A stretch of DNA of 64,000 nucleotides from Actinomycetaceae bacterium (GCA_028724265.1 JAQYDG010000004.1:186001-250000), one strand, 5' to 3'. Counted from the stretch's first letter, positions 43,331-62,324 are shown. Numbers and translations are program-made. The notes: a model not told the origin generated them from the sequence alone.

Positions 43331-43462
43331 AGGCTAAGTGTAGGGCATCGGGCATCTCCTCCTGCGGATCCGCACAGCCACAACATGCTGCCACAACGAG
43401 GAATTTTGCCGCGTACGCTGCGTTTTCATTGGGGTATCGGCATACCCACGATTGGAGTTTCG

Positions 43463-44344
43463 ATGAAATACGGCATTACGGCGGCAAGTTCCCACTATGG
43501 AAGTACCGTTATTCAGACCATGCTCAGTGCAGGCGTCGACGAACAGAATATCGTGGCATATGCTCGGCATCCCAAGAACCTCGACGTTCTTGAACGCCGG
43601 GGCGTCACTGTCCGTGATTTAGATTACGCGCACGACTTTGCCGGCAAGTTCGACGGTGTAGACCGGCTGATGTACATTCCCACGCGAGATTCGTCACGAA
43701 GGGACGCGGTGGCGCAACGCCTCATTGCAGAGGCCGAGCGGGCAGGAGTACAAGACTTCGTCTACATTAGCTTTATTAATGCCGATCGTTTCCCGGATAA
43801 TCCGCTGACACCGGATCACCGTGCCACCGAGCAATTGATGGACGCATCCGCGATGAATACGCTGGCGCTCCGAAGCGGTTACTATACCGAAAATATTTTG
43901 GAGTCGCTTCCGTCGTATCTGAGCCGCGGTGTTCTGCCGAGCACGTCGCGCGACGGTAAGATGTCCCTTGCCTCCCGTGACGAGATGGCGCAAGCAGCTG
44001 CGAAGCTCTTTATCGCACCAACCTTTGAGACCGGTGTGAAAACCTTCGCTGGAGCAGCCTACTCAAAGGCTGACGTCGCACGGATTCTCTCTGATGCGAC
44101 AGGAGCGAATATCGTGGTCAAGGAACTGGAACCGGCCGACTATTATGCAGCACTTGTTGAGGGCGGCATGCCAGAAGCCGCCGCAAAGGTATACACGGGC
44201 GTTGATGTTGCTGTTCGCCGTGGTGCTCACTATACGGAATCGACGGATTTGGCAACGGTGCTCGGGCGCAACCCCCGGAGTTTTGAAGACTCTGTACAGG
44301 CGTGGGCGCGAACCCAACACAATGGCACCGAAACGGCAAGGTAG
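43463..44344 (+). CDS. NmrA-like NAD(P)-binding reductase (QorB type)
   Basis: 293 residues, atypical short-chain dehydrogenase. The nucleotide-binding N-terminus reads MKYGITAASSHYGSTVIQTM, a modified glycine-rich loop in which Ala/Ser/His replace glycines. Family proteins such as QorB reduce quinones or sense NADP(H); the residues I can see (RSGYYTENILESLPSYL) fit that group. ATG with GGAG five bases upstream. It is divergent from smc, with the promoters in 43331-43462, and the MATE gene begins 15 bases after its stop codon, so the two are likely one operon. Confidence 0.82.
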   Translation: MKYGITAASSHYGSTVIQTMLSAGVDEQNIVAYARHPKNLDVLERRGVTVRDLDYAHDFAGKFDGVDRLMYIPTRDSSRRDAVAQRLIAEAERAGVQDFVYISFINADRFPDNPLTPDHRATEQLMDASAMNTLALRSGYYTENILESLPSYLSRGVLPSTSRDGKMSLASRDEMAQAAAKLFIAPTFETGVKTFAGAAYSKADVARILSDATGANIVVKELEPADYYAALVEGGMPEAAAKVYTGVDVAVRRGAHYTESTDLATVLGRNPRSFEDSVQAWARTQHNGTETAR

Positions 44345-44359
44345 AGTCCGAGACAGAGC

Positions 44360-45679
44360 ATGACGAACACGCCCACTTCCGGCAGGAGGATTCTGTCACT
44401 TGCGCTTCCGGCCTTAGGGTCACTGCTTGCCGAGCCACTGATGGTTCTCGGTGATTCCGCTATGATCGGGCACGTTGGTACCGCTGCGCTCGCCGGGCTG
44501 ACTGTTGCCTCGTCAGTCAACGTGCTGATCACCGGCATGTGTATTTTTCTGGTGTACAGCACCACGGCAGTTGCGGCACGAAAACTCGGTGAAGGTGATC
44601 AGGCCGGTGCGGTTAAAACCGGCGTGGACGGAATGTGGCTGGGCCTGATCGTCGGGATCATTCTGGCATCTGCGGTCTTTATGCTCGCGCCGTGGATCAT
44701 GTCACTGTTTGGCACCGATCAGGCCGTTGCTCGTGAGGGAATCCGCTATTTGCGTGCGAGCAGCGGAAGTCTTGTTGGCATGATGTGGGTTCTTGCCGGA
44801 ACGGGAGCGCTCCGAGGCCAACTGGACACGAAAACACCGCTGATCATTTCGGTATTCGGGGCTATCGCAAACGTCTTATTCAATGCTGTATTTATTTTCG
44901 CCCTGCACATGGGCGTCGCCGGCGCAGGTGTAGGGACAACACTGGCGTGTACAGGAATGGGACTCGCTTTCATGGGGAAAGTTATACGCGGTGCTCGGCT
45001 TTCCGGCGTTGCGATGCATCCAGAATTCCATGGGATCCTTGGAGCGCTCGGATCCGGCATCCCGCTCATGATACGTACGGCAACGATGCAGGCTGTGATT
45101 ATGGCAACCGTCTGGGTTGCAGCAAGCCAAGGAACAGTTGCTGCTGCAGGGCGTCAAATCGCCAATAGCACGTGGAGCCTCACCTCAAATATTCTCGATG
45201 CGCTGGCCATCGCCGGACAAGCGCTGGTGGGGTTTGAACTTGGCCACGGTGACGAAACGCGGGTGCGTGGACTCGTCACAACACTGACCACATGGGGAGT
45301 AATCGCCGGTCTCTGCATCGGTCTGATTCAAGCACCGGCTGCATTTTTCTGGCCTCAGCTGTTCAGCTTAGATCCTGACGTTGTTGCCGGGGCGCGCATC
45401 GCCCTCTGGGTTGCCGCAGCGTTTATGCCTCTGGCCGGAATCGTCTATATGTACGACGGGATCTTAATCGGTGCGAACGACGGCTGGTATCTGGCCGTCG
45501 CAGGCCTCGTCAACATGGCTCTCTACGCTCCATCACTTGCGGCGGTATGGCTGTGGGCGCCAGACGGCGCGGCTGGATTAGGTTGGCTGTGGGCGTGTTA
45601 CTGCGGCGTCTTTTTCCTCGCCCGATTCCTCACGCTTGGGCTTCGACTACGGACAAATGGCTGGACTCATCTCAGCTGA
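44360..45679 (+). CDS. MATE-family efflux transporter (DinF type)
   Basis: 439 residues with about 12 hydrophobic helices in two repeats. The N-terminal stretch LALPALGSLLAEPLMVLGDS and IGHVGTAALAGL are characteristic of MATE proteins, and the second half repeats the pattern (LTSNILDALAIAGQALVG). It exports cationic or other drugs or metabolites with Na or H antiport; the substrate cannot be told. Its start lies 15 bases after the NmrA-like gene. A bidirectional terminator follows. Confidence 0.92.
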   Translation: MTNTPTSGRRILSLALPALGSLLAEPLMVLGDSAMIGHVGTAALAGLTVASSVNVLITGMCIFLVYSTTAVAARKLGEGDQAGAVKTGVDGMWLGLIVGIILASAVFMLAPWIMSLFGTDQAVAREGIRYLRASSGSLVGMMWVLAGTGALRGQLDTKTPLIISVFGAIANVLFNAVFIFALHMGVAGAGVGTTLACTGMGLAFMGKVIRGARLSGVAMHPEFHGILGALGSGIPLMIRTATMQAVIMATVWVAASQGTVAAAGRQIANSTWSLTSNILDALAIAGQALVGFELGHGDETRVRGLVTTLTTWGVIAGLCIGLIQAPAAFFWPQLFSLDPDVVAGARIALWVAAAFMPLAGIVYMYDGILIGANDGWYLAVAGLVNMALYAPSLAAVWLWAPDGAAGLGWLWACYCGVFFLARFLTLGLRLRTNGWTHLS

Positions 45680-45724
45680 CGGTGACAGGCCAACGACCAC
45701 AGTACCAACCCGTCCATCAGCTCG

Positions 45725-45773
45725 ATAAAGCCCTACAACCGGTGAGCCGAGACAATCGGTTGTAGGGCTTTAT
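45725..45773. terminator. Bidirectional intrinsic terminator
   Basis: Perfect 17-base inverted repeat ATAAAGCCCTACAACCG / CGGTTGTAGGGCTTTAT around a 15-base loop, between the convergent MATE gene (plus) and the dehydrogenase gene (minus). The A/T-rich ends (CTTTAT in both directions) allow it to work both ways. Confidence 0.85.
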
Positions 45774-45823
45774 CCGAGGTAGCCAGTTAACTGGTCAGCT
45801 AGCTCGTCAGCCGAAACAATCTG

Positions 45824-46732
45824 TTAACCGAGGACGATATTCTCGAATGGCTCGCCGGCCAGTGCATGACGAATCTGGCGCTCAATCAGAGCCTTCATCC
45901 TTGGCTGCATGGCGCGCGAGTTACCCGCATTATGCGACGTAATGATCTTCGCAGCTCCCCACAGAGGAGAATCGGCTGGAAGCGGCTCCGGATCGACTGT
46001 GTCGATCAGCAAATTGAGGCGATCTCCTTCGGCGGCCAGATCCTCCGTCACAGCAACGGAGCCGCGACCGGCGTTGAGGAAGTAGGCGCCATCCTTCATC
46101 TGAGCCAGAAAGTCCTTGTTAACAAGACCCTTTGTGTGTTTGTTCGCCGGAACGATGACGATCACAACATCTTGCTCTGGCAGAAGCTTATTGAGCTCAT
46201 CCATACCATGCACATGACCGAACTCCTCGTCACGCGCATGGGAGGCAACCAGCGTCAAGTCAACTTCAAAAGGCTTCAGCCGCTGAATAATAGCACGGCC
46301 AACGCCGCCGACGCCGATGAGCATCACTTTCTTGTCCGCTAGCCCATCGACATAGAACTGACCCCATTCGTTGTGATCATCGTTGTGAACAATCGTAGGA
46401 ATATCGCGCACCCCCGCTAGCAACAGGGTCAGCACCATTTCAGAAGTGCCGGTCTCATGCACCGTTGAGGCGTTAGCAACCTGAAGGCCTTCGGGTACGT
46501 TCTCCGGCAGCATATCAAAACCAACAGATCCAATCTGCAACAGACGAGCACCGGCGTTCTTTGCGATATCGACTCCATTCGCCGGAGTCCAATGGCCGGT
46601 CAGAATAATGTCGAAATGACCCGGCTCAGGTGCGGTGCCGTCCTTCTTAATATCCCACCGCGTCACATCCACGCCGGGAATGCCGATGTCAAAATCCCAG
46701 AATGGATCAATCGATACTTGCAAATTCGCCAT
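45824..46732 (-). CDS. D-isomer-specific 2-hydroxyacid dehydrogenase family protein
   Basis: 302 residues. The NAD-binding motif is VMLIGVGGVGRAIIQ (about residue 135). Catalytic Arg is in LNAGRGSVAVTEDL, catalytic Glu in DTVDPEPLPADSPLW and catalytic His in TSHNAGNS, so the triad is complete. Substrate is unknown; relatives reduce 2-oxoacids or oxidise phosphoglycerate. The ATG at 46732 has GGGAGG upstream. It lies 90 bases downstream of folC on the same strand. Confidence 0.9.
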   Translation of the reverse strand: MANLQVSIDPFWDFDIGIPGVDVTRWDIKKDGTAPEPGHFDIILTGHWTPANGVDIAKNAGARLLQIGSVGFDMLPENVPEGLQVANASTVHETGTSEMVLTLLLAGVRDIPTIVHNDDHNEWGQFYVDGLADKKVMLIGVGGVGRAIIQRLKPFEVDLTLVASHARDEEFGHVHGMDELNKLLPEQDVVIVIVPANKHTKGLVNKDFLAQMKDGAYFLNAGRGSVAVTEDLAAEGDRLNLLIDTVDPEPLPADSPLWGAAKIITSHNAGNSRAMQPRMKALIERQIRHALAGEPFENIVLG

Positions 46733-46822
46733 GTTGCCTCCCATACTGATCTACATCACAAGCCAACGCACTCACACACAAAATATTTCATGGTCCAAAA
46801 TATTCCGCGATCAATGAGGGGG

Positions 46823-48370
46823 CTACGCCTCATCCGGATTCGCTTTTCCCATCAAGGCACGCACATTGCCAACCAGCTCGAAGCTGCCGAGAGCAACGAC
46901 CACCGGCGGCGTCAGATCTTCAGCGGAATCCGTTTCCGCGATCGCAGTGGCGTGATCGATAGCTTCAGCAAGGTCAGGCTCAACAACGACGCGATCCTCA
47001 CCAAACACTCCCCTGGCGATCTCACCCAGCTGTTCAGGATCCATCGCTCGCGCGCTCTCCATACCCGTCACCACCACGGAGGCAAGCACGGGCTCCAAGA
47101 CGCCCAGATAGTCTTCCTGATCCTTGTCACTCATCTGCGCAACAACACCCACGATCTTGGACTGAGGATAGTATTCGCGCAGCGCACTCACCTGCGCTTG
47201 AGCTGCATGCGGGTTATGTCCGCCATCCACCACAACCAGAGGGGAGGTACGCACCACTTCTAGCCGCCCTGGGCTCGATACGCTCATCAGCGCCCGCTCC
47301 ACCACGTCACCGGGCAGAGCAGATCCATCAAAAAACGCCTCGACGGCAACAAGAGCAACTGCAGCGTTGTGCGCTTGAAACGCTCCGCGTAAACCGAGAG
47401 GGATATCGGTGTAGGTGGCAGCGGGAGTTGTGATCGTCACCATTTCGCCTCCGACAGCAGTTTCGCGGTGTATCACACGGAAATCGCGGTTTTCCAACAG
47501 ATACCTCGCATGGTTTTCCTCCGCGCGCGCAGCTGATAGCTCCACCACCGACTCTCGTTGAGCCGCAGAAACAAGTATTTTTCCTCGTTTGAGGATGCCC
47601 AATTTGGTGTCCGCAATCTCCTCGATTGTGTTCCCCAGCCACTCCATATGATCCAAAGCAACAGGAAGGAGCACCGCAACATCAGCATTGATCACATTCG
47701 TCGCATCCCATTCTCCCCCCATGCCGACTTCCACAACAGCAACGTCGATCGGCGCATTGGAAAAAGCGTCGTACGCCATAACGGTAAGAACCTCGAAGAA
47801 GGATAGCCTTGGTCCGCCTGCAGCCACAGACTTCTTATCGACGATGTCGATATAAGGCTTCACGTCATCCCAGGTGTCGATGAAATCCTCACGAGAGATC
47901 GCCCTTCCATCGATGGAGATGCGTTCGCGCATGTCTTCCAAATGTGGTGACGTGAAGCGACCTGTGCGCAAGCCGCGCTCCCGCAGCAATGCTTCGATAA
48001 TTCTGGCAGTGGTCGTTTTGCCATTCGTCCCTGTGATATGGATCGCGTGGTAATTCCTTTCAGGATTGCCAATCAGCGCAAGGACGTCTCGCACCCGATC
48101 GAGCGTCGGTTCGAACGCGTGCTCAGGATTCCGACTCCAAATATCAGCGTAAATCTCCTGTAAACGGGCATCGAGTTGAGAACGAGCCGCGAGTTTTTCA
48201 GCCTCCGTCGGTGCTTTGATAGGCGCCTGATTCATAATGTCCTCGATGACGGAGGGATCCGGGCCGGCGATTTCCGGGCTCGAAATTGCAGCTTTAATGC
48301 GCTGATCGAAACGCAGATCCTCTGCCACTTCTTCTGGTGTACGTGGATCCTCGCCTTCGCCTTGGATCAT
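46823..48370 (-). CDS. folC: Bifunctional folylpolyglutamate synthase / dihydrofolate synthase
   Basis: Adds glutamate to folates. A non-conserved, acidic N-terminal extension of roughly 70 residues comes before the Mur-ligase-like domain. The ATP-binding loop ITGTNGKTTTARI and GRFTSPHLEDMRERI follow, with EVGMGGEWDATN and a C-terminal VVVDGGHNPHAAQAQ. About 515 residues. The start at 48370 is chosen for AGGAAG upstream; other in-frame ATG codons exist further in. Confidence 0.92.
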   Translation of the reverse strand: MIQGEGEDPRTPEEVAEDLRFDQRIKAAISSPEIAGPDPSVIEDIMNQAPIKAPTEAEKLAARSQLDARLQEIYADIWSRNPEHAFEPTLDRVRDVLALIGNPERNYHAIHITGTNGKTTTARIIEALLRERGLRTGRFTSPHLEDMRERISIDGRAISREDFIDTWDDVKPYIDIVDKKSVAAGGPRLSFFEVLTVMAYDAFSNAPIDVAVVEVGMGGEWDATNVINADVAVLLPVALDHMEWLGNTIEEIADTKLGILKRGKILVSAAQRESVVELSAARAEENHARYLLENRDFRVIHRETAVGGEMVTITTPAATYTDIPLGLRGAFQAHNAAVALVAVEAFFDGSALPGDVVERALMSVSSPGRLEVVRTSPLVVVDGGHNPHAAQAQVSALREYYPQSKIVGVVAQMSDKDQEDYLGVLEPVLASVVVTGMESARAMDPEQLGEIARGVFGEDRVVVEPDLAEAIDHATAIAETDSAEDLTPPVVVALGSFELVGNVRALMGKANPDEA

Positions 48371-48571
48371 TCCAGCTTCTTCCTTTCCTCGCCGTCTTCT
48401 CGCCGCTCCAGATTCCTGAATGCCGCGAGGAGAATACACGCGTGTCGTACCTTGACGTTCAACCTAGAACAGCCAACACAACGCGCGTTCTACCGATACG
48501 ATTAACGCTACACGCCACACGATTATTCATCGTGCGCACGGATTGCCTTCGCCTGAATTATTGCGTCTCCG

Positions 48572-48613
48572 CTTCCCTACCGGTTGCCTCTTCTTCCCTA
48601 CCCGTTGCCTCTT
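48572..48613. repeat. Two tandem copies of a 21-base unit
   Basis: The unit at 48572-48592 is repeated at 48593-48613 with one C/G difference (CTTCCCTACCGGTTGCCTCTT then CCCGTTG). It lies in the folC-TPR intergenic region. Confidence 0.9.
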
Positions 48614-48700
48614 CCTTGTCTTTGTTTCGGTTGTGTGCTTGCTTCGGTTATTCACGGCCGTCGTTTCGATTGCCACGCATTGTCCTTTCGGCTGTCCCAT

Positions 48701-48735
48701 CTCGTCAGCTTGCCCCGTCTCGTCAGCTTGCCCTA
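48701..48735. repeat. Two tandem copies of an approximately 18-base unit
   Basis: CTCGTCAGCTTGCCCCGT at 48701-48718 is followed at once by CTCGTCAGCTTGCCCTA at 48719-48735. It is the second short tandem duplication in the same intergenic region, about 90 bases from the first. Confidence 0.85.
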
Positions 48736-48945
48736 TCTTGCGTGCGACCACTGCGGACTGTCGTCATATCATGCCCACATCGTGCAACAGAACAAAAAAA
48801 CAGCAGCATTGTTGGATGTTTTTTCATTGCGATCTGCCTCACTGATACGAGAGACTAGAAGTGATCTGCAGAGAGCTGACTGTCACGCGCATCTGCATTG
48901 GTGGGGACGTGTTCAGCTCGTCAAAGGTGATGAAGAGGAAGAACA

Positions 48946-49830
48946 ATGCTCGACCAAGAATCTATGCTGCGCGAAAAAGTCGCCGACCTTGAACGTCAGG
49001 GACGTTATTACGATATGGTTCAACCGCTCGAAGAACTCGTGAGTCTATTGAGCTATCGATGCAGCGGTGGCGGATGTTCCACCGCACGCGAAACACCTGA
49101 GTACGCTGCCGCACTCGACCAGCTGGGTGGACTACACCGAAACCTCGGCAATCTGGATCGCGCACATGATATTTATCAGCAAGCGGTGATGACCAGCGCT
49201 ACCGTTTTCGGCACCGACGATCCGAATTATGCCACCACGCTGAACAACTACGCAGGTCTGCTGAGGCTGCGTCAGGACTTTGATGGAGCAGATGACGCGT
49301 ATCAGCGAGCTGAAAAAGTATATAACGCCACCATTGGCCCAACCCATGTCCTGACAATTTCCTGCCTGAACAATCGTGGTTTGCTCCGCCAAGATCAGGG
49401 ACGTTTCGATGAGGCTCTTGAGCTCCACCACGAAGCACTGCGCCGCCTCCGTTCTGTTCCTGGCAACGAGGTAGCTGAAGCGACAACACTGAACAACATT
49501 GCGAGCGTACACGCCAAGATGAAGGACTACGCACAGGCTCGCCAGTATATGGAAGAAGCCTCCGAGATCTACGAACGCACAGTTGGCAAGCAGTCCGATC
49601 TCTACGTGGGGCAGCTACATAATCTCGCTTCAATCCAAGCTCTTTCAGGCGATTATGAGGGAGCCCTTGAACGCCTGGAATGGGTTGCTCAGCGCAGCCA
49701 GGAGATGTTCGGCCCGCGCAGCGACAATACACGTGCCGCGCTGCGCAACCTCGCAGCAGTCTATGATCACCTCGGGCAAACCGAGAAAGCTCAAGCCGCG
49801 CGTGCACAAGCGGATCGGGGACTCCACTAA
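48946..49830 (+). CDS. Tetratricopeptide-repeat protein (kinesin-light-chain type), first of a three-gene cluster
   Basis: 294 residues without signal peptide or membrane helix. After about 65 residues of helical leader, which contain an unusual CSGGGC motif, roughly five TPR units follow, each with the LNNxAxxxxxxxxxxxA pattern (for example LNNYAGLLRLRQDFDGADDAY and LNNRGLLRQDQGRFDEALELH). Such proteins are scaffolds for protein-protein contacts. ATG with GAGGAAG upstream. The DUF4037 gene starts 36 bases after its stop codon. Function unknown. Confidence 0.85.
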   Translation: MLDQESMLREKVADLERQGRYYDMVQPLEELVSLLSYRCSGGGCSTARETPEYAAALDQLGGLHRNLGNLDRAHDIYQQAVMTSATVFGTDDPNYATTLNNYAGLLRLRQDFDGADDAYQRAEKVYNATIGPTHVLTISCLNNRGLLRQDQGRFDEALELHHEALRRLRSVPGNEVAEATTLNNIASVHAKMKDYAQARQYMEEASEIYERTVGKQSDLYVGQLHNLASIQALSGDYEGALERLEWVAQRSQEMFGPRSDNTRAALRNLAAVYDHLGQTEKAQAARAQADRGLH

Positions 49831-49866
49831 CGCTGCTGCACGACCTATTCGGAGAACGGAGACACG

Positions 49867-50769
49867 GTGAATGAACCCGTGAACAACACGTATATTAAAG
49901 GGCTTGAGCGCTCCTCCATGTGGTGGATGATCGACGTTGCACCCGCACTGCAGGAACGCACCCCAGAGCTCTATCCCTACATCGCAGCAGGGCTTGTTGG
50001 CGACGGCTCTGACTGCTTCGGTTTTGACGACGACATTTCGCGCGATCATGACGCAGACACGCGCGTGAAGATATGGATACCGATTGGCATCGGCGGCGAG
50101 GCGGCTGAATACCGTATCCGCACTGCCATCGGCATGAGCACGAAAGGGGTGGTGAGTGTCGAAGAAATCCCACACTTTTACCGCCGCTATACTGGGCTCG
50201 ACTTTTCACCCAGCACATGGCGCGAATGGTTCGCCATTCCTCAACACAACCTCGCAGCAGCAACGAATGGCGACGTTTTTTACGATGCCTCTGGGCGTTT
50301 CACCCAGCGCCGCGATGTGTTGTTGGATTATTATCCGGCAGATGTGCGCCTCAAACTCCTGGAGGGTGCAACACTCCAGATGGGTCAGGCTGGTCAGTAC
50401 AACTACTCACGCTGCTTGAAGAGGAATGAAATCGTTGCTGCAAGCATGGCAAAGAACATTTTTATCAAAAATGCACTGCGTGCTATTTTTTTGTTGAACA
50501 AGCGCTATATGCCTTTCTACAAGTGGGCACACCGCGCGGCACGTGAATTGCCGATCCTCGGCGAGGAGGCAGCAGTTCTTCTCGATCGTATCGCTACTGA
50601 GCAAGACGCCACCGAAGACATCGAAATTCTCAGCCAGGCTGTGATTGATGAACTGCATCGCCAACAGCTCTCCAGCAGTAGTGCAGATTTCCTTGTTGAT
50701 CACGCACGAATACTTCGTGAACAAATTATTGAGCCAGAGCTTCGAAAGGAAAATCCATGGAAACTCTAA
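49867..50769 (+). CDS. DUF4037-domain protein, possibly of nucleotidyltransferase fold
   Basis: 300 residues. The DUF4037 hallmark is at residues 45-62: GDGSDCFGFDDDISRDHD, with Gly-Ser followed by clustered Asp. This resembles the GS...DxD catalytic pattern of the polymerase-beta-like nucleotidyltransferases, but the fold assignment is my inference. The C-terminal half is helical. A GTG start at 49867 with GGAG upstream; the ATG visible one base further on is out of frame. Its end overlaps the DUF4125 gene by 13 bases, so the products are made together. No function is known to me. Confidence 0.85.
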   Translation: MNEPVNNTYIKGLERSSMWWMIDVAPALQERTPELYPYIAAGLVGDGSDCFGFDDDISRDHDADTRVKIWIPIGIGGEAAEYRIRTAIGMSTKGVVSVEEIPHFYRRYTGLDFSPSTWREWFAIPQHNLAAATNGDVFYDASGRFTQRRDVLLDYYPADVRLKLLEGATLQMGQAGQYNYSRCLKRNEIVAASMAKNIFIKNALRAIFLLNKRYMPFYKWAHRAARELPILGEEAAVLLDRIATEQDATEDIEILSQAVIDELHRQQLSSSSADFLVDHARILREQIIEPELRKENPWKL

Positions 50770-51407
50770 ATTCACACGACAATACCGCCAGCGCCACATC
50801 TGAACGAGACTCCATTATCAGCGAAATTATTGACGCTGAATGGGAGATGTTCACAGCTGTCAATAACGTTGGCGGCCCGGCTGCCTGCCAGAGCCAGGAT
50901 GACACTTTTAGAATTATGAGAACTGCACAATTCGCCACCTGGAGCCTCGACACCTTGATGAGCTACCACCGCGACGTGCTTGAAGCCCGAGTTCAAGGCC
51001 GGAACTTGATGACGGAGAAATACGCACGCATGATGGCCGTTACACATCCGGACGAATATGCAAAGATGGAATCGCTCCTTCCCGCGATCTCACAAAAAAC
51101 GTTTGATCTTGTGGATGCAATTTGCGCACAGCACGAGATCTGGGATCGCCAAGTGTCAGAAGAATTCCCTCGCTTACGTGGTCGAGGCCGCACCCGCAAT
51201 GACGATGCCCAACTCGGTGCTAATCCCACTGCCAGCACATACATGGCTGGGGAGCTGCTCACGTACTCGCTGCCCACACTCGAAAGCCTGATGTCGGACG
51301 TCGAAAATGCGATGAATCATGGTAAGAATCTCGTGCGTGACCAGCTAGAAGCCACCGTCAAACAATATGGGTGGCCTGATCTGGAAACAGCAGAAGCCCA
51401 TCAATAA
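50757..51407 (+). CDS. DUF4125-family protein
   Basis: 216 residues, soluble and mostly helical. The family signature is near the N-terminus: IIDAEWEMFTAVNNVGGPA, then CQSQDDTFRIMRTAQFATW. The conserved Trp, Cys and Asp suggest a binding or catalytic pocket, but I know of no characterised member. ATG at 50757 overlaps the DUF4037 gene by 13 bases with GAAAGGA upstream, so the two proteins are probably made in fixed ratio. It ends the TPR-DUF4037-DUF4125 cluster. Confidence 0.85.
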   Translation: METLNSHDNTASATSERDSIISEIIDAEWEMFTAVNNVGGPAACQSQDDTFRIMRTAQFATWSLDTLMSYHRDVLEARVQGRNLMTEKYARMMAVTHPDEYAKMESLLPAISQKTFDLVDAICAQHEIWDRQVSEEFPRLRGRGRTRNDDAQLGANPTASTYMAGELLTYSLPTLESLMSDVENAMNHGKNLVRDQLEATVKQYGWPDLETAEAHQ

Positions 51408-51817
51408 GATCACAGTGCTGCAACAGCGGCCAATGATGAGAGCCAGCGCCTGAGCATCTGAGCGTGCGCGGGCGCTGCTAGTTCCATAAGCTGCTACGCC
51501 CAACCTCGGAGGCCGCCTCCATATATTGGACATCTCCGATAGCTTGAGAGCCTCGCTGTTGAAGAGCTCGATGTTGAAAGGCCAAGCTGCGATCATCGTT
51601 GACATATTGTGATCCACATACAAATGGCTGATTTCGGGGATCTCGAAATCAGCCATTTGTCTTTTAGGCCTCTATTTCTTTAGCGCGCTACACACACTAT
51701 CGGCAAACACCAACCTCTCTATAAGCACGCACTATTTTCACGCGCGATCGACAAAGACGCACGAAGTGCGCTCTATCGATACAACACGAGCCACATCGAG
51801 GTCGCGTACCTGAACCT
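51408..51817. other. Convergent intergenic region
   Basis: About 410 bases between the DUF4125 gene (plus) and the activase gene (minus), whose 3' ends face each other. It contains the strong hairpin at 51620-51660. I see no supported gene, tRNA or mobile element. Confidence 0.5.
51620..51660. terminator. Bidirectional intrinsic terminator
   Basis: Perfect 17-base inverted repeat ACAAATGGCTGATTTCG / CGAAATCAGCCATTTGT with a 7-base loop, followed on the plus strand by CTTTTAGG. It separates the DUF4125 and activase genes. Confidence 0.8.
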
Positions 51818-52774
51818 TTAGAACGGAGTGTCGGAGCCAACGTAGCAGGTCAAACCGGCACGACGAATACGCTCAGCGATATGCTCCATCAACTCGTTTG
51901 ACGGGGTCTGCAGATCCTTACCTTCGTATTCGACGTCCAGTTCCTCATACTTCGATTCGCCCAGACGATGGTACGGCAGGAGATTGATTTCTTTCGTGCC
52001 TATCGACTTCACAAATTCAGCAGTCGCATCGATATTTTCGTCGTCATCGTTGTACCCCACAATCACAGGGATGCGTATGATCTGCCGCAGCTTGCCTTCA
52101 TGCGCTAAATCTGCAATATGGCGAAGATTTTCGAGAATAACACGGTTGCTTTTACCAGTGGCAGCCTTGTGCTTGGCCGGATCCATCTGCTTGAGGTCGT
52201 TAAACGCCCAGTCCACATTCTCGTAAATCTTGGAGAGATGCTCCCAGGGACCCATCGACGATGTTTCTACCGCCGTATGAATCCCCATCTCGTGCAAGCG
52301 ACGCAAGAAATTGGCAACAAAACGGTATTGTTGGGCAATTTCTCCGCCGCCCACAGTGACGCCTCCCCCGTCGCCCCAATACCGGGAGTCACGCTCAACG
52401 CGGTTCACAAGTTCATCCAACGTATACACTTTCCCAGCGATACCCAGAGCATCGTGGTAGCAGCCATCCGCACACGGCATGTCTTCACAATGCAGGCACT
52501 TGGAACGGTCAATTTTGATATACGAGTCTGGACCATCTGCAGAAATGGCGTCGTACGGGCAAATATGGCGGTCGATGCATGCATGGCACTTATCGCACTT
52601 GGAACGCTTGTACATTATTTGGCGCTGCATATGAATGCTCTCTGGGTTAGAGCACCAATAGCAGTGTAACGGGCACCCTTTAAAGAACACGAGGGTGCGC
52701 GAACCTGGACCGTCATGCACAGAAAAACCCTGCACGTCGAAAACCATTGCTTCGTTCTCTGGATCAAGTTTCAT
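51818..52774 (-). CDS. Glycyl radical enzyme activase (radical SAM, HpdA-like)
   Basis: Installs the glycyl radical on the partner enzyme using SAM and an electron. The radical-SAM cluster ligands are C34, C38 and C41 in GCPLHCYWCSNPE. An insert carries two ferredoxin-like Cys clusters (CDKCHACIDRHICPYDAI and CLHCEDMPCADGCYHDAL), as in activases of glycerol dehydratase and HPAD and unlike the small pyruvate formate-lyase activase. The GGGVTVGGGE motif is complete. 318 residues. ATG behind GAGG, 15 bases after the PucR-type gene; it is the last gene of the glycyl-radical locus. Confidence 0.93.
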   Translation of the reverse strand: MKLDPENEAMVFDVQGFSVHDGPGSRTLVFFKGCPLHCYWCSNPESIHMQRQIMYKRSKCDKCHACIDRHICPYDAISADGPDSYIKIDRSKCLHCEDMPCADGCYHDALGIAGKVYTLDELVNRVERDSRYWGDGGGVTVGGGEIAQQYRFVANFLRRLHEMGIHTAVETSSMGPWEHLSKIYENVDWAFNDLKQMDPAKHKAATGKSNRVILENLRHIADLAHEGKLRQIIRIPVIVGYNDDDENIDATAEFVKSIGTKEINLLPYHRLGESKYEELDVEYEGKDLQTPSNELMEHIAERIRRAGLTCYVGSDTPF

Positions 52775-52789
52775 CGGTGAACCTCTTCA

Positions 52790-54514
52790 TCATTTGCAGC
52801 GCGGCGTAGCCGGACTGCCTTTTGTCAAAATCTTGTTAATGCGCATTGCCAACCAAATCGCGCCCTTACCATCTGAACTGGTGAGGTCAACGGGCAACAA
52901 TTCAGCAATTTTCGCTATTCGGTAACGAACCGTGTTGACGTGAACATATAGCTCCTTGGCTGCCGCCGCATACGAACCGTTGACCTTCAAATAGACTTCT
53001 AAGGTCTCCAACAGTTCGTCACGGTACTGCGATTCCTGGTTCAGCAGTGCCCCGAGAATAAAATCCACATATTCGCGTGACGCGTCTGCCGAACAGAGAG
53101 CCGCAGACAGGAACAGGTACGAACCCAATTCGTCATACCGAATTACCTTTTCGGATAACGAGAAAAGCTCAATGCATTTCACTGCATAAAACGCGTTCTC
53201 AGCGGATTGGTGTATGCCTGCGATGCCGCTTCCCGCCTGACCAATGCCAGCAATAACGTCGGTTATCGCCGGAGCCGCACTCAGAGCATTCACCACCGAT
53301 TCAACAATTTCTGAATAGCGCTCTGGAGTGTGTTTCTCCTCAGTAAAGATAATCGCTACACCCCGCTCCCACGGGCAGACGAACAGCGTCTCTTCCGACC
53401 CGAGAATGCTGTGGAGCTGCTGTGAGACAGTGTTCATCGCCCTGCGTTCCTGCTCCCCAAAAAACGACGACTCTGTAGTGAAATTTCCTGTCTGCGGCGA
53501 AAAACTAATGATTGCAATACGCATCGGCTGTACATAGTTGAGACCGATCAGGTCCGCCAGGTGCAGTGCGCGGCGTTCGTCCATCTGCGGCTCCGAGATG
53601 GCAGCGAAGAAATCCCTGCGGGAAGTCAGCGACGAGGTCTCCACCATCGCATGCTGCGACATATCGATCGTGAGAACCTCTGCAAGAGACGCGAAGAAGT
53701 AAATATCCTCGTTACTCAATGGCTTTTCGGCACCGACCATACAGACGTATCCGAGATTTTCACCCGCATAGACGATATCTGTGGCGACCAGCTGATACCC
53801 CACACCGTAGCTGTCCCTGGCCTGGAGGCTATATATAGTCTGTCCCTCTGTGACGGCAACCTGCTCAAGGGTATCGCCAGCGGTGATTGCCTTCTTCACA
53901 TTCCGCCCTAGCTCAGACACATCAATGTCGGAGTCACCTCCATCGAAAGATGTCCCAAGGAAGTCGAAGTCGGCGGAGAGGATAGCGACCGGATGATGCA
54001 GGTAGACTGCCATTCGTTCCGCGTCGTGGCTCAGCACATGCGGGCCAGATAAGTCCCTGACCATGTCGGTAAATAGTTTCGTACGCCGTTGTTCGCGTGC
54101 CTGTTCGGCCTCTGAAATCATCTGAAAGACGATGCTGGAAATTCGAGCCTGGATCACGCCTTCCGGCAGCTCGATGATGGGAAAACCTTCCTCGTCACCG
54201 AGCTGGAGGACGGACTGTGGTACCTCGTTGATATAACGGTGGGTCTTCAGAGCAAGGCAGGCTGCCCCACCATCAATGAGGTCGCGCACCCACTGAAGGA
54301 GTGCTGCCTCATCAACAGTGCCGTTCGCCTGCCCGAAAAAACTACCCACGCCGTGGACAAAATCATTGCCGTTCAGCCAATGCGCAATATCGGGGATTTC
54401 AGCCACAGTAACAGACTCGACAGGCTTGTCGAGATTTTCAGCGCCGGCCAAGACATGCGCACCCTCAAACTCGGGGTGCTGCAAAACCCGCCGAACAGTA
54501 ACGCCGCTATACAT
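52790..54514 (-). CDS. PucR/CdaR-type transcriptional regulator
   Basis: 574 residues. An N-terminal PucR domain (residues 1-130: VRRVLQHPEFEGAHVLAGAEN, IPDIAHWLNGNDFVH) is followed by a GAF-like middle region (about 170-290), a GGDEF-like CdaR segment (about 300-440), and a C-terminal HTH (about 500-555: TLEVYLKVNGSYAAAAKELYVHVNTVRYRI). Members sense small metabolites such as purines or glycerate and control catabolic genes. The ATG overlaps the transporter stop codon by 8 bases. It probably senses the substrate or product of this locus; likely targets are the palindromes upstream of the glycyl radical enzyme gene. Confidence 0.9.
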   Translation of the reverse strand: MYSGVTVRRVLQHPEFEGAHVLAGAENLDKPVESVTVAEIPDIAHWLNGNDFVHGVGSFFGQANGTVDEAALLQWVRDLIDGGAACLALKTHRYINEVPQSVLQLGDEEGFPIIELPEGVIQARISSIVFQMISEAEQAREQRRTKLFTDMVRDLSGPHVLSHDAERMAVYLHHPVAILSADFDFLGTSFDGGDSDIDVSELGRNVKKAITAGDTLEQVAVTEGQTIYSLQARDSYGVGYQLVATDIVYAGENLGYVCMVGAEKPLSNEDIYFFASLAEVLTIDMSQHAMVETSSLTSRRDFFAAISEPQMDERRALHLADLIGLNYVQPMRIAIISFSPQTGNFTTESSFFGEQERRAMNTVSQQLHSILGSEETLFVCPWERGVAIIFTEEKHTPERYSEIVESVVNALSAAPAITDVIAGIGQAGSGIAGIHQSAENAFYAVKCIELFSLSEKVIRYDELGSYLFLSAALCSADASREYVDFILGALLNQESQYRDELLETLEVYLKVNGSYAAAAKELYVHVNTVRYRIAKIAELLPVDLTSSDGKGAIWLAMRINKILTKGSPATPRCK

Positions 54515-55865
54515 CGAGCATCAACGATTCCTCTGGTGTGCCAAGGTCTTCTTCCGATGCTTCGACCCCAGACACCCCCGTCTTTGGTTTCGCCATCAGA
54601 ATGAAGAATGCCGCTAACAAACAGAATACACCGAGATAGCCGAACACGATGTTGAATGAACCCGTCTTGCCTAAAACATAGGAGGAGAGCAGAGGCCCGA
54701 CGAGTCCGCCAACGAAACCGTAAGCAGTGAAGATGTATCCGAAGATCAGGCCGAAGTATTTCAAGCCAAAGAGGTCAGTGCCGAGCGGAGCCGTCACAGC
54801 AAACAACGTGCCAAAAGCAAAGCCGACGAGCGCACACAGTACACAGAGCATCACAACGTTGTGGACGAACGGGAGGACGAAATAACCAACAGCGGCGAGC
54901 ACGAAAGTGATCGCAGCCAACATGTTTCTCCCGATGATGTCCGAAAGAGCACCTGCAACGATACGGGAAACACCGTTGGTCAGGTTGAAGGCTGTCAGCA
55001 AGGCAACCGCAGCGACTGCATACCCACTGGCCGAGAGGTATTCACCGTAGCCGGTGGAGAGCGTCACCATGGAAATGCCAGCTGCTCCCATAAAGCACCA
55101 CGCGAGCCAAATAAACCAGAACGACCGCGTACGCACCGCAACCTTGGGCTCCACATCGGCGGCCGGCACTGAACCGGAGGAGTCATTCGCCACGCGATCC
55201 ATCAACTCCTGGCGAGCCAGCTGCTGCTGCTCGGTCATAGGCGTTCGATCAGGCATTTCGGTAATAGCAGCTGCGATCAGATTCGTCACGATAATGAGGA
55301 CGATCGTCGCCCAGCCCATACCGACATATCCGAATGCATCGAACATGACCTTGAACAGCGGCGACATCACGGCCGCAGAAAGGCCGAACACCAGGTTGAC
55401 GATGCCCGTCACCAGGCCACGGCGATGCGGATACCAATTCTGCACTGTTGCCAACGAAGGAGAGTACACAAAGCACGACGCAGTTCCGTTGAGGAAAGCG
55501 AAAAGGTACAAGAGCCACACGTTAGGCGAATATATGACAATGAGCATGCACACCACGAGAATCGCCGTTCCCACAATATAGGATCGGCGCGTACCGAGTT
55601 TCATATGCCATTTGCCGGCGAAAAAGGTGAAAATACCCAGCGATAACACAACGAAGGTCATAATCCATCCGAGCTGGCCGGGCGTGGCGTTGAACTTCTG
55701 TGCCCAAATGGATTTCATCACGCCTGGATACCCGAAAATTAATGCCCCAGACCAGAACGTCGAAAGTGCGGAACCGATCACCGCATTCCTGGCATAGCGC
55801 TCGTAGCCCGCATAATCAGCGACAGGTCGCGCTGCTGGCGCATGATGATTTGTAGTAGTAGCCAT
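54507..55865 (-). CDS. MFS transporter, oxalate/formate antiporter (OFA) family
   Basis: 452 residues with 12 predicted transmembrane helices. The central family motif is RRGLVTGIVNLVFGLSAAVMSP (near residue 150); ASCFVYSPSLATVQNWYPHRRG comes before it. OFA members exchange or take up small carboxylates, so import of an arylacetate or export of a product is plausible. ATG at 55865 is chosen because conserved sequence starts soon after; an earlier in-frame start at 55898 lacks a ribosome binding site. It overlaps the PucR-type gene by 8 bases and lies 107 bases after the glycyl radical enzyme gene, beyond a hairpin. Confidence 0.92.
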   Translation of the reverse strand: MATTTNHHAPAARPVADYAGYERYARNAVIGSALSTFWSGALIFGYPGVMKSIWAQKFNATPGQLGWIMTFVVLSLGIFTFFAGKWHMKLGTRRSYIVGTAILVVCMLIVIYSPNVWLLYLFAFLNGTASCFVYSPSLATVQNWYPHRRGLVTGIVNLVFGLSAAVMSPLFKVMFDAFGYVGMGWATIVLIIVTNLIAAAITEMPDRTPMTEQQQLARQELMDRVANDSSGSVPAADVEPKVAVRTRSFWFIWLAWCFMGAAGISMVTLSTGYGEYLSASGYAVAAVALLTAFNLTNGVSRIVAGALSDIIGRNMLAAITFVLAAVGYFVLPFVHNVVMLCVLCALVGFAFGTLFAVTAPLGTDLFGLKYFGLIFGYIFTAYGFVGGLVGPLLSSYVLGKTGSFNIVFGYLGVFCLLAAFFILMAKPKTGVSGVEASEEDLGTPEESLMLDV

Positions 55866-55914
55866 CTCTGCATCCCAAAAACTAACAAAAACTAACAATA
55901 CACAGGTAGTAAAA

Positions 55915-55948
55915 GGCGGGGCTGGAACTCAACAGCTCCAACCCCGCC
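55915..55948 (-). terminator. Hairpin between the glycyl radical enzyme and transporter genes
   Basis: GGCGGGGTTGGA pairs with TTCCAGCCCCGCC (one G-T pair) around a short loop and is followed by TTTTACTACC on the minus strand. It starts about 24 bases after the enzyme gene. It may act as a partial terminator that makes the enzyme mRNA more abundant than that of transporter, regulator and activase. Confidence 0.75.
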
Positions 55949-55971
55949 CGGCTGGATCACAGCAATCGAGA

Positions 55972-58623
55972 TTAGATCTCGTCGTACTCTGTACGTGCGA
56001 TCAATTCATCCTGGATTGGCTTGGCAACCTCAACCCAATACTGAGTAAAGCCAGCCACACGCACCAACAAGCTGCGATATTGATCCGGATGTGCCTGCGC
56101 ATCCTTCAACATACGGGAGTCAACCACGTTGAACTGAATATGATAACCACCCTGATCCATGAAGGACTTGATCATCTGCAGAAGCTTCTTCGAGCCCTGA
56201 GGCCCCTTGATCGAGGCCGGATGAACCTTCATGTTCAACTGCGTGTTCTTGAAATCGGAATGGTCGATCGTGACAGCCGAATTCAGCACCGCATACGGGC
56301 CATTCAGGTCAGTACCTGGATATGGCGACTGCCCGCCATCAGCCAAGGTCACGCCTGCCAAACGACCATCTGGGGATGCAATATCCGCCTGGCCGAGTGG
56401 TCCGTGTGTAGACGTCGAAAGCATCGAGCCAACCCACTTGCGCCCGAACGGATCTGTTGTTGCCTCTGTTGCGTCACGGAACGTTGTGGAGACGTCAACA
56501 TAGATATCATCCACATAGTGATCATCGTTTCCGAACTTTGGTGCGCGATCGCACAGTGCGTGGATCCGCTCCCAATCCGGATTGTCCTTCACCTTGTGCT
56601 GTTCCATCATCGAATACTTGCCCGTAATCAGAGCGGATTCGTAACCGAAGTTGTTCAGCAGTGCATCCTTGAGTTCGTCAAGTGTGAAAGCCTTGTCCTC
56701 ATAGACATTCTTCCGCAACGATGCGAGGGAGTTCGCCACATTCACCTGGCCGGTGATCCACGTTGTGAAGCAACGGTTGTACCGGTTGCCCTCATGATCG
56801 ATATCGGCACCTTTTTCGAGGCAGTCGCTGGTCAGCGCAGAGAACAAAATCGGTTGATCGATCTCGAAGGCGGACTTGGTCTTGAAGTTGTACAGTTCCT
56901 GGAAAATCCTCGTCACTTCGCGGAATTTGATCTTGAACTCATCCATGACGTCGTCGAAGGTTTCAAACTTCAGATGCTTTTCAGGGAACACCTGCACGCC
57001 CGTACGCGGATCCTTACCGTCAAAGAGAACAAGTTCAAGAATCTTCGGCACGTTGATGAAGTTGATGCCGCTGGATGAATAGGAGCCAGCACCCACCTTG
57101 CCGTAGGCCATCGCCCCAGGCTGAATCTCCAAGCAGCCGCCAACAGACCAGGAACGGGCATCTTCAATGGTGATGTTTTCATCCTGGAAGTACTTCATGC
57201 AGTATTCAATACCAACGCGGTTATTCACCCACGCAGGCATACCTGCACCCGTCTTGTTGCATTCAATAGCCTTGTTCAGGAAGGCCTGCGAAAGCCTGCC
57301 ATCGTACAGAACTGTCAGGGTCGGCGAAACAGTCGGCATATTGATGCACGCTTGCAGGAACAGGATCTCCAGCTCGTTGTCACCGGCTGTACCGTCTGGG
57401 TTCTGGCCACCCAAGCAAATATTGTTGAATGTGTTGCCAGCCAGAATACCCGTCGTCGCTGTTGACGTTGCAATTTCCAACTCTGTGTACTTGACGCGCA
57501 TGCACTCAAGAACCTCTAGCGTGAAATCGCGGGTGATCTTTCCTTCGTCCATATCCTTCTTCCAATATGGATACAGGACAGCACCCAAACGCCCCGGCGA
57601 GAAGCCAGATCCCTGCATTTCGTTGTAGACCTCAAGCTGAGCAGTCCAGTGCAGCTGTACTGCCTCCATGAAATCACGCGGAGGATTCTCGGTGACCCAC
57701 TCCAAGCGATCTGCAATATCGAGGTACTCTTGCTTCTGCTTCGCGTCATTCTCAATGGAAGCGAGGCGACGAGCCTCAGCAACATACTTGCGCATCCAGG
57801 TCTGGACGCCTTCGATCGTTGCAATCGTGCTGAGCCAGAACGCAACCTTGTCCACGTTGTTGCCTTCGTGGCAGTTTTCTTCGATCAGTTCGCGGCAACG
57901 CTTCTTAATCCCCTCGAAGCCGAGCGTAAAGACGATCGCATACGAGTTGACAGAGCGGCCGTGACGGTTGCCGTATTCCATATCGGAGCTCATCAGCACG
58001 GCATCCTTGAACTTAACCAAGGTGTCGTACTCCGGATGCATTCGTCCCCACATCCAGGACGTCTCTTCAACGGATGCCCTCTCCCAGTACTGGCACGCCT
58101 TGAGCATGTCCTCATACTCGCTACGCGGCAAGCCATAGCGCTTGGAGATCGAAATCAGGTCTTCGGTGTCCTCAGCGACCACGCCGCCGCCGGTGGCAAG
58201 AATCGTCACATCTTCCAAAGCCTTGTTCGATGCGCGGCCTTCGAGCCTCTTCGCACGCTCCTCTTCCTTCAAGATTGCACTGTTCGCAGTCCATGGAACC
58301 AGTGAGGCACCGCGGACGTAGCGGTTGCGGCTCATCACAATCAGTTCGCCTGGGCGGATATTCGGCTCCAACGCCGAGAAAGCCGCCTTGAAGGCGAGGC
58401 CACGACGCAGAACAGGGTGGTTGCCTTTTGCTTCTTCCCACGCCTTGGTATAGGCAATCGGGAACGAGCAATCCAGCATCAGCTTGGCGTTGTAGTAATC
58501 ATTGATCAGTTTCTCGGCGCGGGGGCTCGCTTTGCCCTTGATTTCGCGATCCTCAACATTCTGAGGCCGCTCGCCGTATGTGAACGTCATTTCGTCTGGC
58601 GTTTGAGTCTCAACAGCAGTCAT
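55972..58623 (-). CDS. Glycyl radical enzyme, arylacetate-decarboxylase-like
   Basis: 883 residues from the ATG at 58623 (AAGGAG upstream). The N-terminal three-quarters is the PFL-like barrel. The active-site thiyl Cys is in VGGCLEIQPG at about residue 497; with the Glu two residues later it makes the Cys-x-Glu pair of 4-hydroxyphenylacetate decarboxylase (Cys503/Glu505), not the CVEP of glycerol dehydratases. The glycyl radical loop is RVAGFTQYWVEVAKPIQDE, Gly at about 858, and the QYW variant fits HPAD and indoleacetate decarboxylase. The stretch QVNVANSLASLRK carries Asn where I place HPAD Glu637, which contacts the substrate hydroxyl. No HPAD small-subunit gene is nearby. Likely substrate: an arylacetate such as indoleacetate or phenylacetate; unproven. 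Oxygen-sensitive, cytosolic. Confidence 0.9.
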   Translation of the reverse strand: MTAVETQTPDEMTFTYGERPQNVEDREIKGKASPRAEKLINDYYNAKLMLDCSFPIAYTKAWEEAKGNHPVLRRGLAFKAAFSALEPNIRPGELIVMSRNRYVRGASLVPWTANSAILKEEERAKRLEGRASNKALEDVTILATGGGVVAEDTEDLISISKRYGLPRSEYEDMLKACQYWERASVEETSWMWGRMHPEYDTLVKFKDAVLMSSDMEYGNRHGRSVNSYAIVFTLGFEGIKKRCRELIEENCHEGNNVDKVAFWLSTIATIEGVQTWMRKYVAEARRLASIENDAKQKQEYLDIADRLEWVTENPPRDFMEAVQLHWTAQLEVYNEMQGSGFSPGRLGAVLYPYWKKDMDEGKITRDFTLEVLECMRVKYTELEIATSTATTGILAGNTFNNICLGGQNPDGTAGDNELEILFLQACINMPTVSPTLTVLYDGRLSQAFLNKAIECNKTGAGMPAWVNNRVGIEYCMKYFQDENITIEDARSWSVGGCLEIQPGAMAYGKVGAGSYSSSGINFINVPKILELVLFDGKDPRTGVQVFPEKHLKFETFDDVMDEFKIKFREVTRIFQELYNFKTKSAFEIDQPILFSALTSDCLEKGADIDHEGNRYNRCFTTWITGQVNVANSLASLRKNVYEDKAFTLDELKDALLNNFGYESALITGKYSMMEQHKVKDNPDWERIHALCDRAPKFGNDDHYVDDIYVDVSTTFRDATEATTDPFGRKWVGSMLSTSTHGPLGQADIASPDGRLAGVTLADGGQSPYPGTDLNGPYAVLNSAVTIDHSDFKNTQLNMKVHPASIKGPQGSKKLLQMIKSFMDQGGYHIQFNVVDSRMLKDAQAHPDQYRSLLVRVAGFTQYWVEVAKPIQDELIARTEYDEI

Positions 58624-58738
58624 TTGTTTTCTCCTTGAACCCTCATGGCGCATGTGCATCTGTGCACGGTGCTTTTTGAGTCACTTTTAGAGTAGAAAAA
58701 TCCCAGAAATAAGTCATCGGAGATTCATACAAACGTTG

Positions 58739-58786
58739 CTGACATCAGTTAGCTAACGCATACAAGGCTGGGACTTTAGCCTTGTA
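58739..58786. promoter_or_regulatory. Cluster of three palindromes, candidate operators of the glycyl radical enzyme locus
   Basis: Within 48 bases: CTGA-CA-TCAG (58739-58748), GTTAGCTAAC (58748-58757, perfect palindrome), and TACAAGGCT-N8-AGCCTTGTA (58761-58769 and 58778-58786, perfect arms). They start about 115 bases upstream of the enzyme ATG. No T run follows on either strand, so I read them as protein-binding sites and not as a terminator. The PucR-type protein encoded in the locus is the obvious candidate. Confidence 0.5.
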
Positions 58787-58906
58787 CAACCGCTGACGAC
58801 GGAGGATGCGCGTACATATACTGAGATATTTTTCCTCAAACATCCTGACAAATACCCAGAACAACGCTACACGGATTTCCTTAAGGACATCGCAGAAATC
58901 ACCGAA

Positions 58907-58948
58907 AGTGGCGGATCTCCAGGATCAAAGCCCGGAAGATCCGCCACT
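58907..58948 (-). terminator. Terminator after ileS
   Basis: Inverted repeat AGTGGCGGATCT / AGATCCGCCACT (12 bases, perfect) around an 18-base loop. On the minus strand it is followed by TTTCGGTGATTT. It is about 85 bases after the ileS stop codon. Confidence 0.7.
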
Positions 58949-59033
58949 GTGTGAAACCCAGTGCGGGAATCCTATTGCGCGAAGACGCGAGGATACCCCT
59001 TCGCCTCGCACTACCGCGTTAGTCGATACGCGA

Positions 59034-62000: not shown

Positions 62001-62324
62001 GCGTTCGGCCTCTAGTTCAGCTGGCAAGCCGTGGGTATCCCAGCCGAAACGCCGCTCCACACGGTTACCCAGCATCGTCTGGTATCGGCCAATCACGTCC
62101 TTGACGTATCCCGTCAGCAAATGGCCATAGTGAGGCAAACCGTTGGCAAACGGCGGGCCGTCGAAAAACACGAATTCTTTTCCGCCCTCTTCTTCTGTTG
62201 GGCGCTGATCAATCGACGCCTGGAATGTGCCATCTTTCTGCCAATAGGCGAGCACATCCTCCTCCATCTGCGGGAAGGAAGGATTTGCAGGCACATCTTC
62301 AGTGCGATGAAGCGGGTAATGCAT
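59034..62324 (-). CDS. ileS: Isoleucyl-tRNA synthetase
   Basis: Class I aminoacyl-tRNA synthetase charging tRNA-Ile. The HIGH-type motif is in [15 protein letters not shown] (near residue 58). The large CP1 editing domain, [14 protein letters not shown] and the KMSKS loop ([16 protein letters not shown]) follow, then an anticodon-binding domain. No C-terminal zinc finger is apparent, as in the eukaryotic-like IleS type found in many Actinobacteria, which tends to resist mupirocin; that is inferred from length (1096 residues) and layout. ATG behind GGAG, directly after a T-box leader. Confidence 0.96.

Follow-up and report, generated by a model that had tools for sequence, protein, structure and literature searches.

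Introduction

Glycyl radical enzymes (GREs) of anaerobic gut and environmental bacteria are responsible for the formation of trimethylamine, skatole and p-cresol, for hydrocarbon activation and for the anaerobic formation of DNA precursors. Their glycyl radical is destroyed by oxygen. To our knowledge, little is known about how GREs are assembled, protected or switched off beyond the activase, spare-part proteins and MoxR chaperones.

The described systems closest to the locus studied here fall into two kinds. The first comprises accessory genes of GRE clusters, such as the BssE-type MoxR AAA+ chaperones of fumarate-adding GREs. In a metaproteome of limonene degradation, the DUF4125/DUF4037 proteins LrcL and LrcM were expressed from an operon in which they follow bssE, and no function was proposed for them (PMC12583861). 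DUF4125 also lies near MoxR-like genes in two of our loci (L157 and L160). The set of TPR, DUF4037 and DUF4125 proteins (the trio) differs from BssE in being of unrelated fold, in having no ATPase and in occurring also in clusters without BssE. Similarly, the trio is found inside cut-type operons of GRE microcompartments (GRM1) in Coriobacteriia and one clostridial genome, but the locus taxonomy (PMC4207490) does not name it in its main text among the ancillary proteins.

The second kind comprises nucleotidyltransferases. As in GlnE/GlnD, a nucleotidyltransferase-type motif in DUF4037 is followed by a helical domain, placed in the same HEPN superfamily (PMC3710099). GlnE/GlnD regulate enzymes by nucleotide addition, which for the trio is a proposal; unlike them, the trio has its own partners, TPR and DUF4125, and it showed no sequence match to them. 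DUF4037 has also been grouped with the HEPN C-terminal domain of aminoglycoside nucleotidyltransferases (Aminoglycoside_NT_C), a group for which occasional TPR fusions were noted (PMC3710099), but the DUF4037 set resides in GRE operons, not in resistance islands.

Among 5.39 million open-access papers, we found five that mention DUF4037 or DUF4125 and none that assigns either a function, in agreement with the original prediction for this locus, and nothing relevant on GREs together with TPR or nucleotidyltransferase proteins. What is new here is not the existence of GRE accessory genes but these proteins and their breadth, and there is a real chance that they represent a new kind of control. 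That a conserved module is tied to GREs whose substrates are unrelated suggests a common, so far unrecognised step, open to direct testing, and a role in GRE systems would assign functions to two Pfam families now without any.

Gene organization of the locus

The window is a stretch of 64,000 nucleotides from an Actinomycetaceae bacterium. The trio, its left neighbours and the partner cluster on its right are as follows.

45824-46744, minus strand: 2-hydroxyacid dehydrogenase, second left neighbour
46823-48439, minus strand: Mur-ligase-family protein, left neighbour
48946-49830, plus strand: TPR protein of 294 aa, probably a docking scaffold (ATG start; Pfam TPR_12, 2.2e-58)
49867-50769, plus strand: DUF4037 protein, 300 aa, probable nucleotidyltransferase, C-terminal half helical (GTG start; PF13228, 1.2e-34)
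50757-51407, plus strand: DUF4125 protein of 216 aa, entirely helical with an internal duplication, the member bound most closely to PFL-type GREs (ATG start; PF13526, 2e-64)
51617-51663, no strand: terminator-like hairpin with a 19-bp stem, between trio and activase gene (inverted repeat; fold z-score -5.8)
51818-52774, minus strand: radical-SAM GRE activase (NCBIfam TIGR02494, 319 bits, above its cut-off)
52790-54514, minus strand: PucR-family regulator (Pfam PucR, 5e-26; HTH_30, 5e-21)
54507-55898, minus strand: MFS transporter, lactate/oxalate-formate type (Pfam MFS_1, 7e-43)
55972-58659, minus strand: GRE, HPAD/IAD-like (PFL-like, 1e-132; Gly_radical, 1e-27)

An ORF check of the window reproduced exactly the predicted three plus-strand genes, with a gap of 36 bp between the TPR and DUF4037 genes and an overlap of 13 bp between the DUF4037 and DUF4125 genes. 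The trio had been described as opposite to all neighbours. This was true of the two left genes (45824-48439) and of the called genes on the right (51818-62324), which are all on the minus strand, but not of 43385-45679, farther left, which is back on the plus strand. The trio is convergent with the activase gene, and the strong hairpin between them has as its core a 17-nt perfect inverted repeat (51620-51636/51644-51660); the trio is therefore probably carried on its own transcript in the window, apart from the activase. An Rfam search of window positions 44000-60000 found no RNA element. Two short tandem direct repeats of 21 and 18 nt, in two copies each, were observed at 48567-48728, within the 506 bp that precede the TPR gene.

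A genome search identified the window GRE as the sole PFL-type GRE of its genome. It scored 929 bits against the NCBIfam equivalog model of 4-hydroxyphenylacetate decarboxylase (HPAD; 1150 needed) and 821 bits against that of indoleacetate decarboxylase (IAD; 1100 needed). The gene adjoining it encodes the MFS transporter, which scored 193 bits against NCBIfam SfMCT, below the cut-off, and is not a small-subunit gene. The PucR regulator keeps the same place in L028, L029, L031 and L032, and the block TPR-DUF4037-DUF4125-activase-PucR-435-aa gene-GRE is kept in four other Actinomycetaceae, in which the left flank varies. Because it lies below both cut-offs, has a transporter gene instead of a small-subunit gene beside it and stands in a conserved gene order, the window GRE is a candidate for a new arylacetate-type decarboxylase group.

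Recurrence of the trio

An alignment search of GTDB genomes with DUF4125 gave at least 565 confirmed stretches, the best 80 of which were taken with their flanks; in GC-rich loci, genes were called with a caller trained on homology seeds. Counting only those of the best 80 that had 3 kb on both sides (53 loci), DUF4037 lay within 5 kb of DUF4125 in 44, TPR in 44 and both in 42. Among the matches listed, all three domains were encoded by one ORF of 756-866 aa in ten loci, and TPR and DUF4037 were fused in nine further ones, giving 19 fusion loci altogether. An AlphaFold model of one three-way fusion (L090) had a mean pLDDT of 95.6 and a pTM of 0.76. In an evenly drawn sample of Clostridia, DUF4037 adjoined DUF4125 in nine of the ten genomes with DUF4125. 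Since dozens of genomes from several phyla have these three domains side by side or in one protein, the trio is a real unit and not a set of chance neighbours, and gene fusion is the strongest evidence in this analysis that the proteins act jointly. The original prediction of a tightly coupled unit is thus borne out by the ten three-way fusions, the nine TPR-DUF4037 fusions and the operons elsewhere.

The three genes do not always travel together, however. DUF4125 was found without any DUF4037 in the genome in eight actinobacterial genomes (families f23 and f37) and in G628, and strong DUF4037 was found without DUF4125 in 14 of 23 genomes of the Clostridia sample. These nine and 14 genomes demonstrate that the trio is not obligate, and the nine indicate that DUF4037 is dispensable to DUF4125. 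In two further genomes (family f20), DUF4125 and TPR genes stand beside a GRE, and DUF4037 appears elsewhere as a weak, distant match.

Several variants of the gene set were observed. In L026 (8977-11073) and L027 (8658-10754), a TPR gene stands between two divergent DUF4125 genes; this DUF4125-TPR-DUF4125 arrangement adjoins the genes of HPAD and of its putative small subunit, and DUF4037 is missing from the vicinity. A Christensenella locus (L101, 14476-15429) has a second TPR gene after the GRE, besides the trio upstream of the activase. Lone DUF4125 genes without DUF4037 occur in GRE-bearing genomes (L018-L024, families f23 and f37), and the f23 proteins among them have a cysteine near the C-terminus (PPCS, ACT or PCT).

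Features of the three proteins

The Pfam match of the DUF4037 protein covers residues 121-220 only and scored 119.5 bits against a curated cut-off of 22.1. The nucleotidyltransferase-like motif of the original prediction was present in the window protein as GDGSDCFGFDDDISRDHD, and its key residues were invariant among 12 diverse relatives (G47, S48, D60, D62 and D140), in the pattern GxGSxxxGFDDxxSxDHD with the later Asp 140. In a pol-beta-type active site, G-S is expected ahead of D-x-D and a third acidic residue; here these are GS47-48, D60-H-D62 and D140, the last being assigned by position only. Profile-profile comparison of DUF4037 with MNT proteins by hhalign gave no signal (probability below 1), and a PDB sequence search with the DUF4037 profile found no relative. 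No significant match to aminoglycoside nucleotidyltransferase families or to a solved structure was obtained. DUF4037 is a probable nucleotidyltransferase whose membership of the superfamily rests on motifs; as the MNT comparison and the PDB search gave no confirmation, its catalysis is suggested by a motif arrangement typical of nucleotidyltransferase active sites. A fold search with the model of the TPR-DUF4037-DUF4125 fusion returned, among the matches listed, TPR proteins only.

The DUF4125 protein matched PF13526 with 217 bits (cut-off 25) over model positions 2-196 of 197. In keeping with the predicted conservation of Trp, Cys and Asp, residues W29, C44, W62 and W129 were nearly invariant among 70 relatives, and E28, D73, E166 and S171 were invariant. 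The AF2 model is all-helical (pLDDT 92.7), and the two halves of the protein align with each other (hhalign probability 93, E 4.8e-8), pointing to an internal duplication. Comparison with the PDB revealed no recognisable fold, with a best Foldseek E of 0.51 and a best VIA Z of 4.0 over 61 residues, although a missing match of this kind does not prove a new fold.

Nucleotidyltransferases accompanied by HEPN-like helices are a known layout of toxin-antitoxin systems (PMC3710099), and the trio might accordingly be an MNT/HEPN-type toxin-antitoxin or anti-phage system. We consider this extremely improbable, because an RNase motif is listed as absent in this HEPN group (PMC3710099), neither DUF4037 nor DUF4125 is matched by any PADLOC model, and the loci lie in metabolic operons. 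As a candidate defence system the trio was rejected: beyond unspecific TPR matches, PADLOC returned a single weak one, of PDC-M71B to the TPR protein.

Linkage to glycyl radical enzymes

The survey for a common fourth gene returned a clear partner. The fourth partner common to trio loci is a GRE together with its radical-SAM activase, and no other recurrent family was found among the 122 nearest neighbours of GRE-less loci, in which the commonest Pfam family occurred four times. The link with glycyl radical loci that the original prediction had envisaged was also found, and is a strong one, but its idea of a stress system has to be replaced by that of a specific partner.

In a sample of 396 actinobacterial genomes, DUF4125 was present in 13 and a PFL-type GRE in 69. 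All 13 DUF4125 genomes, from six families, had a GRE (hypergeometric 5e-11, with no correction for relatedness), and so did 49 of 50 further named DUF4125 genomes, the exception being G424, in which no PFL-type GRE was detected. GREs are too common in Clostridia (193 of 245 genomes) for the co-occurrence test to be informative there. A GRE lay within about 10 kb of 15 of 50 primary DUF4125 loci, where the number of GREs and the genome sizes would predict 1.4; P values for linkage are nominal and the counts inflated by the common descent of loci from related species. In an independent set of 218 Coriobacteriia genomes, sampled by DUF4037 and not by DUF4125 (L017, L025 and G238 included), a GRE or activase was within about 10 kb of 13 of 18 strong DUF4037 loci; in the Clostridia draw, four of ten DUF4125 loci were linked to a GRE or activase.

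The genes were often closely spaced. In 12 loci, variously arranged, DUF4125 and an activase gene were no more than 450 bp apart. Orders seen among the linked loci were as follows.

L062, L157, L160: activase-DUF4125
L092, L101: DUF4125-activase-GRE
L017: GRE-activase-TPR-DUF4037-DUF4125
L244, L246: GRE with MFS

Each of the three DUF4125 copies of Peptococcaceae BRH_c4a (G416) lies inside a GRE/activase cluster.

It could be argued that the GRE link reflects a shared anaerobic lifestyle and that the function of the trio is unrelated. The named hosts of DUF4125 are nearly all anaerobes, and most DUF4125 loci have no GRE nearby: a PFL-type GRE or activase was absent from 71 of 120 DUF4125 stretches, some of which end at contig ends. 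The three-way fusions of Lachnospiraceae are mostly unlinked to a GRE, in genomes that do have GREs, and in G337 the trio is missing from an HPAD locus (L156). Lifestyle does not, however, account for a physical linkage ten times above chance, for the placement inside GRE operons, for the copy-by-copy pairing in G416 or for the split of loci by GRE type described below, and we regard this explanation as very improbable. Instead, the trio is very probably tied to GREs in its function, and its recurrent linkage to GRE and activase genes marks it as a probable GRE accessory system. An 813-aa neighbour in L151 was of suggestive length for a GRE, but matched no GRE profile and was not counted.

Range of linked enzymes

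According to NCBIfam models, the linked enzymes include choline TMA-lyase (CutC; above the cut-off in L060, partial in L231 and L232), indoleacetate decarboxylase (L246, 1766 bits), HPAD (L026, 1663 bits), sulfopropanediol dehydratase (HpsG; L100) and several unnamed PFL2-3 members. The GRE clusters of L157 and L160 resemble the fumarate-adding type, as judged from gene sizes and from MoxR-like neighbours recognised by eye only. GRE microcompartment operons contain DUF4037 and DUF4125 in L231, L241, L232 and L152, and TPR in L231, L241 and L152; in these last three the trio is located between the aldehyde dehydrogenase and MerR genes. Genome comparison thus establishes a specific GRE/activase linkage across unrelated GREs: their substrates are unrelated, and only the glycyl radical, with its activase, is shared by all of them.

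This range bears on the possibility that DUF4037 is a small-molecule nucleotidyltransferase, resembling those acting on aminoglycosides, which modifies a metabolite of the neighbouring pathway. Its classification with the C-terminal domains of those enzymes (PMC3710099) would fit such a role. Choline, indoleacetate, hydroxyphenylacetate, sulfopropanediol and nucleotides offer no metabolite common to the linked GREs, however, and the TPR partner suggests a protein target, so that we judge this role improbable.

TPR-DUF4037 pairs without DUF4125 had another partner. NrdG or NrdD genes stood beside four of 12 such loci, in the following orders.

L194, L197: TPR-DUF4037-NrdG-NrdD, on one strand
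L199: NrdG-NrdD-thioredoxin-reductase-like-TPR-DUF4037
L201: NrdG-like gene adjoining the TPR-DUF4037 pair

In L194, NrdD and NrdG2 were above the cut-off. Class III ribonucleotide reductase (NrdD) is itself a GRE. Loci with DUF4125 had a PFL-type GRE or activase in 49 cases and NrdD/NrdG in none, whereas those without DUF4125 had none and four, respectively (Fisher 3e-6, from small numbers). This split suggests that TPR-DUF4037 is the general part of the system and that DUF4125 is the part specific to PFL-type GREs.

Proposed function

We lean towards the view that the trio is an accessory or control module for GREs, in which the TPR protein would dock, DUF4037 would nucleotidylate and DUF4125 would give specificity. 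We infer docking, nucleotide transfer, the target protein and the direction of control along the following lines. The TPR protein would dock on a partner protein, and DUF4037 would attach a nucleotide to one of the proteins of the GRE system, be it the GRE, the radical-SAM activase or DUF4125. Nucleotide addition would then switch GRE activation on or off. DUF4125 may be an adaptor recognising PFL-type GREs or their activases or, alternatively, the regulator that is modified. That GRE control works by protein nucleotidylation is offered tentatively. A regulation of the whole class from choline lyase to NrdD, with a TPR-guided nucleotidyltransferase modifying the GRE/activase machinery and DUF4125 as the specificity subunit for PFL-type enzymes, is a more speculative extension.

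The main rival is a structural chaperone, in which DUF4125 and TPR hold the GRE open or bring GRE and activase together, and DUF4037 is a secondary regulator or an enzyme of free nucleotides. It would explain why DUF4125 is the constant GRE-linked part, present in whole genomes without DUF4037, and why some genomes have DUF4125 and TPR without it, as in the f20 DUF4125-TPR-DUF4125 set beside HPAD (L026 and L027). DUF4125 often adjoins the activase, and TPR folds bind peptides, both of which are consistent with a chaperone. Left unexplained are the invariant transferase residues, the DUF4037 fusions and the DUF4125-less TPR-DUF4037 pairs beside NrdD, and a chaperone function therefore appears rather unlikely to us. 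According to the control module that we favour, the form serving class III ribonucleotide reductase (NrdD/NrdG) would work without DUF4125.

Two minor features of the loci without DUF4125 were also observed. The TPR proteins of L194, L195, L197 and L199 start with Y-x-(E)P-x-C-x-x-C, a possible metal site or NrdD-specific feature that the window TPR protein does not have. In L200 (8633-10608), desulfoferrodoxin-like and thioredoxin-like genes come after TPR-DUF4037 on its strand, a setting compatible with a connection to oxygen stress.
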